Shown here: positions 3,094 to 59,357 of the stretch, one piece after another | Position numbering within the stretch: the first letter of the stretch is position 1 | How the letters are laid out: each line of letters starts with the position of its first letter | DNA from: Pseudomonas sp. LS44 | GTDB taxonomy: Bacteria; Pseudomonadota; Gammaproteobacteria; Pseudomonadales; Pseudomonadaceae | Assembly (NCBI RefSeq): GCF_024730785.1 | Contig: NZ_CP102830.1 | Location: forward strand, 3,162,001 to 3,226,000 | DNA length: 64,000 nt | Direction: 5' to 3' | Made by a program: the position numbers and the translations under genes | The notes under the pieces: generated by a model | The model's database searches: none | The model's input: only the letters and a program-made list of their open reading frames with translations | What the model was told of the DNA's origin: nothing

Positions 3094-3228
3094 CCTGTTC
3101 ACGAGCTCGCGAGCTAAGGACAGGCAAGGCGAAAATGGCTGAGGACGCGGAGTTTACAAGTTGTAAATGAGCAGTCCGAAGCCGTTTTCAACGCAGCATG
3201 GCCGACGCGCAGCAGATCGTGGGCAGGT
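3094..3228 (+). repeat. Structured intergenic element, copy A (covarying nested hairpins)
   Basis: Outer stem 3094-3104 with 3217-3227, including two T-G wobbles. Stem 2 is 3131-3140 (GAAAATGGCT) with 3180-3189 (AGCCGTTTTC). An inner stem pairs GGAC 3143-3146 with GTCC 3174-3177. It is followed by an asymmetric loop (GCGGAG / TGAGCA) and an apical hairpin TTTACA-AGT-TGTAAA (3153-3167). Wobbles are G-U only if the plus strand is the RNA. The 3' foot is 3 nt from the adk stop codon (3231-3233). Copies B and C share the core (TCGCGAGC..., AGGCAAGGCG, TGAGCA, AACGC, GCGCAGCAG) but have different paired bases. It could be a small RNA, a 3'-UTR element or a miniature mobile element. Confidence 0.7.
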
Positions 3229-3230
3229 TC

Positions 3231-3878
3231 TTAGCTGAGCGCGGTCAGAACCTTGCCTGTGATCTCTTCAACCGAACCCACCCCGGCAACGGCGGTGTAT
3301 TTCGGCGTGCCTTCAGTGGCAGCGAGCTGCTGGTAGAAGTCGACCAGAGGCTTGGTTTGCGAATGGTAAACCGACAGGCGGTGACGAACGGTTTCTTCTT
3401 TGTCGTCTTCGCGCTGAATCAGGTCTTCGCCAGTTTCGTCGTCCTTGCCGGCGACTTTCGGCGGATTGTGTTCGGTGTGGTACACGCGACCGGAAGCCGG
3501 GTGCACGCGACGACCCGCGATGCGGCCAACGATTTCCTCGTCATCGACGGCAATTTCGACGACGTAATCGATCACCACGCCGGCTTCCTTCATGGCCTCG
3601 GCCTGCGGGATGGTGCGCGGGAAACCGTCGAACAGGAAACCGTTCGCGCAGTCCGGTTGAGCGATGCGCTCTTTGACCAGGTTGATGATCAGGTCATCGG
3701 AAACCAGGCCACCGCTCTCCATGACGCTCTTGGCTTTCAGGCCCAGCTCGCTGCCGGCCTTGACCGCCGCACGCAGCATGTCGCCGGTGGAAATTTGCGG
3801 AATGCCGAACTTTTTGGTGATGAAGCCAGCTTGGGTACCTTTGCCGGCACCGGGCGCTCCCAACAGAATCACGCGCAT
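3231..3878 (-). CDS. adk: Adenylate kinase
   Basis: Converts ATP + AMP to 2 ADP in the cytosol. The 215-residue protein starts at the ATG at 3878 ([16 protein letters not shown]). The P-loop [10 protein letters not shown] is at residues 7-16, the NMP-binding segment is [10 protein letters not shown], and [11 protein letters not shown] precedes the LID. The LID ([20 protein letters not shown]) is long and lacks the four zinc-binding cysteines, as in other gammaproteobacteria. ppc lies upstream on the same strand across a 154-bp gap that should carry the adk promoter. Downstream, copy A of the structured element begins 3 nt after the stop codon, and a terminator follows. Confidence 0.98.
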
Positions 3879-4032
3879 CGATGTTTCCTCAAGGTTAATT
3901 ATTAGTTTGGATAGCCTCGACGGGCTCATCTCGGAATAAGGTTCCGGCAGCGCTGGGCGGCCAAAAAGGCTGACCAAGATACACAGCGCCCCTGGAGCAC
4001 ACAAGCCATCCAGAAGTAGCAGGAACGGGCGG

Positions 4033-6669
4033 TTAACCGGTGTTGCGCAAGCCTGCGGCGATGCCCGCCACGCTCACCAGCAAGGCCTGTTCCAGAGGGC
4101 CGCTGGCCTCCCCCGCAGAGTGTCTAGAACGGGCCAGGAGCTCAGCCTGCAACAGGTGCAGCGGGTCGAGATAGGTATTGCGCACACTGATCGATTCGAG
4201 GGTCTCAACACTATGTGCGAGGAGCTGCGACTGTCGGGTTAAACCCAGTACCGCCGCAATAGCCTGCGACAATAGGTCGCGCAAATGTGCACCTAGTGGT
4301 TGCAGGGCCGGATCGACCAGGCGCTGGTCGTATAAACGGGCAATTTCCGCGTCGGCTTTGGCCAACACCATCTCCAACATATCGATGCGCGTGCGGAAGA
4401 ACGGCCAGTCGTCGCGCATGCTTTCCAACAGTGCCTTGTCACCGCGTTGCAAGGCATTGCCCAACGCCTGCTCCCAGCCCAGCCACGCTGGCAGCATCAG
4501 GCGGGTCTGGGTCCAGGCAAAGATCCACGGAATCGCCCGCAGGCTTTCCACCCCACCCTCGCGCCGCTTGGCCGGGCGGCTGCCCAGTGGCAGGCGACCG
4601 AGCTCCTGCTCCGGCGTGGCCTGGCGGAAATAATCGACGAACTGCGGATGCTCACGCACCACCGCGCGGTAGGCCTGCACGCCATCGGCGGCGAGGCGAT
4701 CCATCAGCTCGCGCCACGCCGGTTCTGGCGTAGGCGGCGGCTGCAGCGTGGCTTCGAGCACCGCCGCCAGGTACAGATTGAGGTTCTGCACGGCGATGTC
4801 TGGCAAGCCGAACTTGAAGCGGATCATCTCGCCCTGCTCGGTGGTGCGAAAATGCCCGGTGACCGAGCCCGGCGGCTGCGAGAGGATGGCCGCATGGGCC
4901 GGACCACCGCCGCGCCCGACCGTGCCGCCACGGCCGTGAAACAGCAGCAGTTCGACGTCGTGGGCCCGACAGATATCCACCAGCGCCTCCTGCGCACGGT
5001 ATTGCGCCCAGGCGGACGCCGTGGTGCCGGCATCCTTGGCCGAATCGGAATAACCGATCATCACTTCCTGCGGGCCATGCAGGCGCACGCGATAGCCGGG
5101 CAGACCGAGCAGGCGATCAATCGCCGGGCCGGCGTTGTCCAGGTCATCGAGGGTCTCGAACAACGGCACGACGCGCATCGGCCGCTGCACACCGGCTTCC
5201 TTGAGCAGCAGCTGCACCGCCAGCACGTCCGATGGCGCGCCGGCCATGGAGATTACGTAGGAGCCGAGCGATGCCGCCGGCGCCGCCGCGATCACCCGGC
5301 AGGTGGCGAGCACTTCGGCGGTATCGGCAGACGGCTGATGGTGCGCCGGCAGCAGTGGCCGGCGGTTATCCAGTTCTCGCAACAGGAAGGCGATGCGCGT
5401 GTCTTCATCCCACTCCTGGTAGTGGCCGATGCCCAGGTAGTCGGTGATTTCGTTCAGCGCGGCGGCGTGGCGGGTGGCGTCCTGACGGATATCCAGGCGC
5501 GCCAGAAACAGGCCGAACGTGGCGGCCCGGCGCAAGCAATCGAGCAACGCGCCATCGGCAATCACACCCATGCCGCAGTGGTGCAGCGATTGATAACAAA
5601 GCTCCAGCGGCTCTATGAGTTCGCGGTTGTCTTGCAGCACAGCGGCGCTGGCCACGGTGTCGCCAGCCAACGCCGCCTCCGCCCAGGCGCGAGTCGCGCG
5701 CAGCCGGTCGCGCAGTTGTTTGAGCACACAGCGATAGGGTTCCGGATGCACGCCGACCAACAGCTTCAACTCGTCACTGGCCTGTTGCATGGAGAGTTCG
5801 GCGGCCAGTTGATCGACATCGCGCAGATACAAATCGGCGGCCATCCAGCGCGCCAGCAGCAGCACCTCACGACTCACCTTGGCGGTGACATTCGGGTTGC
5901 CATCACGGTCGCCGCCCATCCATGAGGCAAAGCGCACTGGCGCCGCCTGCAACGGTAAACGTAGGCCGGTCGCGGCGTGCAGGTCGGCATCCACGCCGCG
6001 CAAAAAGCGCGGCACGGCTTGCCACAGCGAGTGTTCGATGACCGCGAAGCCCCATTTGGCTTCGTCCACCGGAGTCGGTCGACTGCGGCGAATTTCCTCG
6101 GTATGCCAGGCCTCGGCGATCAGGCGTTGCAGGCGGTTACGCACCTGCTCGCGCTCGCGCTCGGACAGATCGTCATGATCCTGCGCGGCCAGCTGGGCGG
6201 CGATGGCGTCGTACTTCTGGATCAGCGTGCGGCGCGCCACTTCGGTCGGGTGCGCGGTCAGCACCAGCTCGATTTCCACCCGGCTCAACTGCCGGGCCAG
6301 CGATTCGCCGCTCTGCCCGGCGGCCAGCAGGCGGCCGAGCAACTCGGGGAGCACGAGGGCTTCGAACGGCTCGGCCTCGCCCGGCGCCAAGCGGCGCACC
6401 CGATGATATTGCTCGGCGATGTTGGCCAGATTGAGAAACTGGTTGAAGCCACGGGTGACCGGCAGCAGTTCGTCCTCGGCCAGGCCGTCGAGCGTGCTGC
6501 TGAGTTGTTCGGCGCCGGCCGCCGAGCCCTGCCGCGCGGCTTTGGCGCCCTTACGGATGCGCTCGATCTTGTCGAGAAAGTCGGCCCCGTACTGGGCGCG
6601 AATGGTTTCGCCGAGCAGCTCACCGAGCAGGTGTACATCCTCACGCAGACGCACGTCGATTTCCGCCAT
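4033..6669 (-). CDS. ppc: Phosphoenolpyruvate carboxylase
   Basis: An 878-residue anaplerotic enzyme that makes oxaloacetate from PEP and bicarbonate. Catalytic features are [14 protein letters not shown] with His140, the glycine-rich [16 protein letters not shown], and the following [18 protein letters not shown]. The C-terminus IAAGLRNTG matches the tetramer-forming tail typical of the family. Length and start ([20 protein letters not shown]) are normal. It is the first gene of a leftward unit with adk behind it. A 219-bp gap separates it from the divergent small gene at 6889, so both promoters lie there. Confidence 0.98.
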
Positions 6670-59142: not shown

Positions 59143-59171
59143 GGCCGTCTCTCGTAGCGGAATTCACAAAT

Positions 59172-59202
59172 GACACGGGGCTGATTGGAACAGCCCCGTG
59201 TC
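59172..59202. promoter_or_regulatory. guaA: Strong hairpin in the guaA leader
   Basis: GACACGGGGCTG-ATTGGAA-CAGCCCCGTGTC: perfect 12-bp stem with a 7-nt loop, about 30 nt upstream of the guaA ATG. No U-run on the minus strand, so it is not a simple terminator in the guaB-to-guaA direction. It may stabilise mRNA or regulate guaA. Confidence 0.6.
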
Positions 59203-59216
59203 TTATCAAACTTCAC

Positions 59217-59357
59217 AAAAATCGATTTGCCACGTCGCGAGCGAAGAAGAGGCAAGGCGGAAGGAGGTGAGAAAGCGCAGTTGGCTACAGCCAATGAGCA
59301 TTTCGAGCCTCCTTCCAACGCCGCCTGTTCGAGCGCAGCAGCGGCAAATCGATTTTT
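59217..59357 (+). repeat. Structured intergenic element, copy B (covarying nested hairpins)
   Basis: Outer stem AAAAATCGATTTGCC (59217-59231) with GGCAAATCGATTTTT (59343-59357), perfect 15 bp. Stem 2 GGAAGGAGGT (59259-59268) with GCCTCCTTCC (59307-59316). Inner stem GAAA (59271-59274) with TTTC (59301-59304), asymmetric loop GCGCAG / TGAGCA, apical hairpin TTGGCT-AC-AGCCAA (59281-59294). The 3' foot runs into a T-tract and ends at the base before the guaB stop codon (59358-59360). Same fold and core as copies A and C; paired bases differ in compensating ways. Confidence 0.72.

Follow-up and report, generated by a model that had tools for sequence, protein, structure and literature searches.

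Folded repeats of Pseudomonas sp. LS44 as probable type II MITEs with one conserved core and several kinds of ends

Introduction

Three folded repeats, designated copies A, B and C, lie in a 64,000-nt stretch of the genome of Pseudomonas sp. LS44 (GCF_024730785.1, NZ_CP102830.1, positions 3,162,001-3,226,000; genome size 4.46 Mb); "the window" denotes this whole stretch. The three copies are most probably (at roughly 85%) non-autonomous type II miniature inverted-repeat transposable elements (MITEs) of one superfamily, whose ends would exploit the transposases of insertion sequences. Unusually, it is the interior that stays constant across the family, whereas exact or close counterparts of the ends occur in insertion sequences of the families IS5_4, IS5_3 and IS1182. 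An initial annotation of the window had described three copies of one architecture with complementary base differences, and had suggested a mobile element with target preference, a passenger of convergent terminators or a regulator of the 3' ends of neighbouring genes. The sequences, stems and complementary differences are as it gave them. The suggestion of a mobile element is borne out by the many copies, inverted-repeat ends, target duplications, empty sites and insertion sequences with matching ends.

In the proposed mechanism, two outer arms of ~15-20 nt would act as terminal inverted repeats around a core that forms a single long hairpin. An insertion sequence that shares these ends would provide a transposase in trans, and this enzyme would move the element into target sites of the form C-TNA-G for type 1 and NTAN, chiefly CTAG, for type 2, with duplication of TNA or NTAN. 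Insertions at stop codons would survive, the gene staying intact, and this would give the stop-codon-touching pattern. The fold would be kept most likely because the strand with G-U and G-A pairs acts in folded form, as single-stranded DNA or RNA; alternatively, it may be conserved because the arms copy each other.

Copy number and distribution

A covariance model was trained on copy A and 12 other copies, with B and C left out. It recovers both, giving three matches in the window up to an E-value of 10: copy A at 135.3 bits, copy B at 91.2 bits (E = 2e-27) and copy C at 43.2 bits (E = 1.5e-11). The initial annotation had proposed such a search for further copies, and these proved numerous. 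The element occupies 107 places in the host genome, a set comprising 109 matches at E <= 1, minus three weak ones, plus copy C, which was absent from the list. Each copy is ~140 bp long, non-coding and too short to encode a transposase. A separate motif search of the host returned 153 matches, compared with 10 for the reversed pattern. Matches occur in 24 of the 29 genomes searched, namely the host (103 matches) and 23 of 28 relatives, with 0 to 81 matches per relative.

The element extends well beyond the relatives. Among 274 sampled genomes of the host's class, host included, 106 contain a match at E <= 1e-6, representing 90 of 222 genera; this count may be too low because the filters were strict and few candidates were scored per genome. 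Holders among the matches listed include Pseudomonas, Stutzerimonas, Chitinimonas, Vogesella and Pseudogulbenkiania. With copy A as the blastn query, matches were obtained in 1 of 50,697 phage records and 14 of 72,556 plasmid records, none covering over 80% of copy A, and in none of the 5,426 genomes of an E. coli collection; these searches could miss diverged copies because copy A was the only query. Phages and plasmids were rejected as the vehicle on these counts. An exact pattern matched nine stretches of viral contigs.

Ends, target duplications and empty sites

Three end types account for 81 of the 107 host copies: type 1 (n = 44), with ends like GARCCTGTTTACGATC, type 2 (n = 35), like CAGGCCGTTGAAAAA, and type 3 (n = 2), like GTTCTGTACGAAAA. 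Many of the 26 copies with other arms nevertheless have arms that are complementary to each other. Type-1 copies are flanked by TNA on the left in 38 of 44 cases and on the right in 42 of 44, and the duplication is identical in 30 of 44. These sites share a context, with C before in 34 of 44 copies and G after in 34 of 44. Type-2 copies are mostly flanked by NTAN, of which CTAG is commonest (left 15/35, right 11/35). Identical duplications were found in 12 of 35 type-2 copies and in neither of the two type-3 copies.

Sites without the element were sought by BLAST of the flanks against the loci of relatives, which gave 13 two-sided pairs, of which seven were inspected. The element is cleanly absent from relatives' sites corresponding to host copies 67032, 3288052 and 905254 (L377). 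The arms of copies 67032 and 905254 belong to no type, and the relative's site lacks both core and arms; the arms therefore belong to the element. The initial annotation's suggestion that the element rides in convergent terminators is disfavoured by the same two sites, where the hairpin came with the element. Three further sites are less clean: that of copy B in L350 lacks the element and carries other repeats, and sites in L268 and L244 lack it yet differ in length.

Insertion sequences with matching ends

Transposase loci in related genomes were chosen by the domains DUF772 or DUF4096, with ~30 loci each, a part of all matches. Three of these insertion sequences, assigned to families by NCBIfam, have ends like those of the element. 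The first (L193, IS5_4) carries CTAG-CAGGCCGTTGAAAAA at either end, identical to type 2. The second (L215, IS5_3) carries CTAG-GTTCTGTACGAAAAGT at either end and, at both ends, agrees over 16 bp without a mismatch with an element copy in the same genome (L174); type-3 ends are paired with this insertion sequence by end match. The third (L213, IS1182) has CAGACTGTGTGAAAAC at either end, and two element copies in another genome (L164 and L066) differ from it by one mismatch on the left and none on the right. The ends of class D, one of six classes described below, are near-exact to this IS1182 element. The proteins of L193 and L213 show a weak match (25% over 154 residues), and L193 and the first L215 frame show no similarity worth naming. 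The IS1182 element itself (L213, 305-1941) sits midway in a terminator-like palindrome.

Several observations weigh against the interpretation of the copies as MITEs. Type 1 is the most frequent class in the host, and no partner for it was found in 298 genomes with one pattern, nor among the DUF772 and DUF4096 loci examined. That pattern gave six matches in 5 of the 298 genomes, consisting of four element copies and two lone ends, and no transposase was recognised by eye in the frames beside them. The host has three PF01609 matches and no PF13340 match, none with ends of types 1-3, in a search restricted to these two transposase families. One of the PF01609 matches belongs to an IS1182-like element whose frame is broken and whose ends are class-D-like; despite its presence, end typing yielded no class-D copy in the host. 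The share of identical duplications among type-2 copies is low, and the arms of copies B and C fit no end type and show no clean duplication. In L333 (~3258-3369), a family copy that has a left-arm module and different arms occupies the intergenic region of copy 905254; either a second insertion or a replacement of the arms could account for it. Finally, plain MITE biology does not account for a covarying interior. Type-2 ends also occur in the host outside the listed copies, in six regions that represent lone, partial or core-less element ends; at two of these six, no transposase was recognised in the frames.

Abutment on stop codons

Among the 81 end-typed copies, 38 have flanking bases that form the stop codon of a coding-like frame directed into the element, where a coding-like frame has >=100 open codons and high third-position GC and is not an annotated gene. 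Facing frame ends number 39 at distance 0, whereas each offset between 1 and 100 has 0.28 on average. Type 1 contributes 36 facing ends, of which 21 lie at distance 0; the expected number is 10.4 with every TNA in the next 100 nt taken as an equally likely target, an expectation that takes no account of the C/G preference around TNA. The four TNA triplets are TAA, TGA, TTA and TCA, each a stop codon on one strand or the other, and CTAG contains TAG. Because of this composition, an insertion exactly at a stop codon keeps the gene whole.

Orientation relative to the abutting frame is random, with 20 copies sense and 19 antisense, and the abutting genes differ from copy to copy. Together these two observations speak against the suggestion in the initial annotation that the element regulates the 3' ends of its neighbours, and a role in sense-strand 3' untranslated regions was rejected on the 20:19 split. 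Copies A, B and C looked patterned because all three have an antisense neighbour. The description of the arrangement as convergent is true of gene and element, not of the flanking genes, which lie on the same strand at all three sites.

The repeat could have been selfish first and then domesticated, with arms and core kept because, at gene ends, the hairpin acts as a terminator. The T tracts of copies B and C fit such a role, as do type-2 ends, which put T5 after the core on both strands; repeats in P. fluorescens are known to be biased to gaps between two gene tails (PMC2718517). However, the genes around copies A, B and C are in tandem, and frames that end within 100 nt face the element from both sides in just 11 of the 81 typed copies. 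In addition, a consensus terminator scan found no terminator spanning A, B or C, with stem and loop limits that may miss long stems. On this evidence domestication is unlikely.

One core with several ends

For a comparison of cores with ends, 287 copies were sorted, of which 244 were usable: six end classes took in 161 of these, and 83 were unclassed, some solely because their left arm is displaced by an additional module. Copies with identical cores never belong to different end classes. The smallest core differences between classes amount to one change (B/E), two (A/D), three (C/D) and four (A/B). A core tree of 146 distinct rows, after identical rows were merged and the 83 unclassed copies excluded, requires 28 end changes where five is the least possible. 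If B and E, which are similar, are treated as one class, 18 are needed where four is the least possible. Well supported branches force 5, 4, 2, 2 and 1 changes per class. These counts are rough because the tree rests on only 81 columns, leaves 67 of its 143 inner branches open and has a bootstrap that did not settle. Repeated exchange of ends on a conserved core appears likely from these comparisons, and the order of the exchanges is a matter of inference.

A more tentative idea, doubtful on present evidence, is that the folded core is the true selfish unit and repeatedly switches its vehicle. One of its arms would gain new transposon ends, and the other would be copied from it by foldback repair, which the hairpin makes possible, so that a core beside any insertion-sequence end would become a new mobile element for that transposase. 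Such a process would explain why one core carries ends of three transposase families and why complementary arms can fit no known ends. It would also explain why covariation shows so few one-sided intermediates (changed cells number 36 for one-sided and 196 for two-sided changes, the analysis's own sums over the 32-copy alignment described below).

An improbable alternative is that a single MITE lineage has followed a single transposase lineage, and that the differences between ends reflect drift rather than exchange. Classes B and E are indeed close, some unclassed arms resemble them by eye, and the tree has few columns and many open inner branches. Drift is difficult to reconcile, however, with ends that match those of three NCBIfam transposase families exactly or almost so and with two kinds of duplication, TNA and NTAN. 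The excess of end changes also persists in the tree with B and E merged (18 against 4), in which the well supported branches still force the changes given above.

Fold, conserved mismatches and covariation

From the outside inwards, the element consists of the outer arms, a linker, stem 3, AAGGC opposite AACGC, a 10-bp stem 2, a GA/GA mismatch, a 4-bp inner stem, GC/GC with a bulged A, GNA opposite GA, and an apical hairpin that starts with a G-U pair. In many copies the linker reads GCGAGC ... GCGCAGCAG. The strand assigned to the element by the initial annotation folds far more stably than its dinucleotide shuffles (z of -5.5 for A, -8.7 for B and -8.0 for C). The opposite strand also folds, less strongly (-3.3, -7.9 and -7.0, respectively), and in each of the six combinations of strand and copy, 0 of 200 shuffles matched the native fold.

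Covariation was assessed by shuffling. In an alignment of 13 copies, two-sided changes occur at 18 of 32 pairs, which 0 of 500 shuffles reach. In an alignment of 32 copies, mostly from other families, they occur at 26 of 32 pairs, with 0 of 500 shuffles and 8-14 pairs in slid controls; this alignment was fitted to the model and hence leans towards structure. Stem 2 varies freely yet remains paired.

Base pairs were tallied from 290 rows, of which 248 could be parsed (42 could not), yielding 176 distinct copies; copies from named genomes came from 100 of 120 loci. The conserved GA is present on the 5' side in 166 and on the 3' side in 167 of the 176, and 171 begin their apical hairpin with G-U. 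The motifs GCGNA and GAGCA each occur in 175 of 176, although part of their letters was demanded by the parse, which required G.G.A and [GC][AC]G.A beside the apical hairpin. With the first apical pair excluded, there are 75 G-U and 32 A-C pairs (p = 4e-5, uncorrected for relatedness), and the class-wide set has 14 and 4, respectively (p = 0.03). The excess therefore favours the strand chosen in the initial annotation, though A-C pairs occur and both strands fold well. The claim that G-U pairs are confined to one polarity thus holds as a bias, not as an absolute rule.

This evidence bears on the quite improbable alternative of a functional structured RNA, either a small RNA or a 3'-end regulator, that happens to be multicopy. 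It would explain the strong covariation, the 75:32 ratio of G-U to A-C and the retention of GA/GA, and the name of Rfam family RF02228 (sX9), with which copy C overlaps, points in the same direction; sX9 is recorded in Xanthomonas (PMC9029176). Several results oppose it: the 20:19 orientation, the unrelated abutting genes and the spread from 0 to 81 copies per relative. Moreover, the sX9 model lies on the other strand and matches two places in the host and none of 20 class-wide loci. A scan confined to sigma-70-like promoters found none at A, B or C.

The remaining alternative, that the core inserts into loops of pre-existing hairpins or terminators and the outer arms are the target's, is barely credible: complementary arms of no end type (in B, C and other copies) and the position of the IS1182 element L213 within a terminator-like palindrome would suit it, but relatives' sites of 67032 and 905254 have neither core nor arms, arm lengths are similar and most copies (81 of 107) have one of three end types.

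Variants of the element were also observed. Extra hairpin modules of ~55 nt occur in the left or right arm, for example in 688471-, 1017077+ and 699850+ (L110, L128 and L129). By eye, the left and right modules share GGCCCGNAGGGCGAGCGNAGCGAGT in inverted form and are found with type-1 and type-2 ends alike. Core-less derivatives that keep their ends were seen at host positions 1387957- and 3401963+ and in L148 (460-511), as expected of deletion inside a palindrome. Separately, GCGNAGY heptamers lie inside the element in 103 of 107 host copies. They sit at the linker in A, B and C, and also ahead of the apical stem in A and B. As DNA, GCGNAGY folds into a mini-hairpin of very high stability, which hints that it may be as single-stranded DNA that the fold acts.

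Copies A, B and C in the window

Copy A (3091..3230, + strand) is 140 bp long and has ends that resemble type 1. Its limits were placed by eye, with the type-1 ends of other copies as a guide, and it scored slightly below the end-type cut-off in both end-typing runs. By eye, the left end (3091..3106, +) is a decayed relative of GAGCCTGTTTACGATC, and the right end (3215..3230, +) was also placed by eye. The core (3131..3189, +) was read from the sequence and its structure tested by covariation. On the same strand it comprises stem 2 (3131-3140/3180-3189), the GA/GA mismatch (3141-3142/3178-3179), the inner stem (3143-3146/3174-3177), followed by GC/GC with bulged A3173 and a GGA/GA loop, and the apical hairpin (3152-3157/3163-3168). 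The stop codon of adk (3231..3233, - strand; TTA on +, TAA on -) sits at the place of the type-1 target duplication. Its left counterpart is GTA (3088-3090), hence the pair is not identical.

Copy B (59217..59357, +) has outer arms AAAAATCGATTTGCC / GGCAAATCGATTTTT, which fit no end type, and a T tract; it abuts the stop codon of guaB (59358..59360, -; TTA on +). Copy C (18607..18747, -) is diverged and G+C-rich, has a T tract at its 3' end and abuts the stop codon of ydcS (18604..18606, +). The 3' feet of B and C thus lie 0 nt from the stop codon, as initially annotated, and with the limits 3091-3230 the same distance, instead of 3 nt, applies to copy A. The three intergenic regions are flanked by the same-strand gene pairs adk/tsaB, guaB/guaA and ydcS/a PotA-like ABC transporter gene.

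Other repeats and hairpins share the window. A strong intrinsic-terminator-like hairpin lies behind adk (3042-3069, - strand) and is distinct from copy A. A 54-nt hairpin repeat, GTAGGGCGGGTGCAACCCGC..., is present in two inverted copies (18824-18877 and 27762-27815), one of them beside copy C. A short palindromic repeat similar to GTAGGAGCGAATTCATTCGCGA and to repetitive extragenic palindromic (REP) sequences occurs at 23352, 32716 and 55974. Repeats like CGTAGCCCGGATGNAATCCGGG (8755-8779, 25089-25152 and 32775-32838) resemble the UYCCGG motif MRSC-65-2 of PMC11109978, a resemblance only.

Implications

If ends truly exchange on a conserved core, such MITE families have been defined by the wrong part. 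End exchange would also make testable how one parasite uses several transposases and why a DNA transposon retains an RNA-like fold. A caution also follows, as covariation by itself is no proof of a functional RNA.

Comparison with known families

The initial annotation assigned the element to no named family, which stands only in part. Copy C matches RF02228 sX9 (18668..18742, +; 60.9 bits, gathering cut-off 44), as does a second host copy, 270946 (61.9 bits), these being the two places in the host above threshold. The match at copy C is antisense to the element and spans the apical hairpin and the element's 5' half on the opposite strand. The model therefore differs from the element in strand and covers about half of its length. 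Copy A scores 20.1 bits, copy B gives no match, and 0 of 20 class-wide loci reach the cut-off. Other Rfam matches near A and B are weak and unrelated to each other and were set aside. The sX9 family was reportedly derived from transcript data. It is among the most frequent bacterial small RNAs (PMC9029176). As far as the searches show, the repeat is represented in Rfam only by this half of a small RNA on the other strand; counts of small RNAs based on sX9 may therefore partly count transposons.

Among the matches listed in the literature searched, whose coverage leaves out most subscription journals, no description was recognisable as this element; at least three of the papers mention sX9. The closest relatives in kind are other multicopy repeats. 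REPs are 20-40 bp long (PMC3733652). The element is likewise intergenic, palindromic and multicopy, but at ~140 bp, with transposon-like ends and duplications, it exceeds the REP length. MRSC-65-2 is a multicopy folded motif with strong covariation, like this element, and its authors read it as a selfish element whose structure is perhaps relevant as DNA; its description as one long stem that carries a UYCCGG repeat would set it apart (PMC11109978). The repeats R0 and R2 of P. fluorescens SBW25 are MITE-like, have ends identical to those of resident insertion sequences and are biased to gene-tail gaps. Each, however, is bound to one insertion sequence, and neither a covarying core nor ends of several families appear in the accessible part of their description (PMC2718517).

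Type II MITEs of prokaryotes are <500 bp long and gene-less, with inverted-repeat ends, target duplications, similarity to insertion sequences at the ends only and transcripts predicted to fold (PMC10969869). At ~140 bp, the element shares the gene-less body, the inverted-repeat ends, the duplications and the insertion-sequence-like ends. In the usual understanding, a type II MITE family is tied to one transposase by its ends, whereas here the interior defines the family and the ends vary across transposase families.

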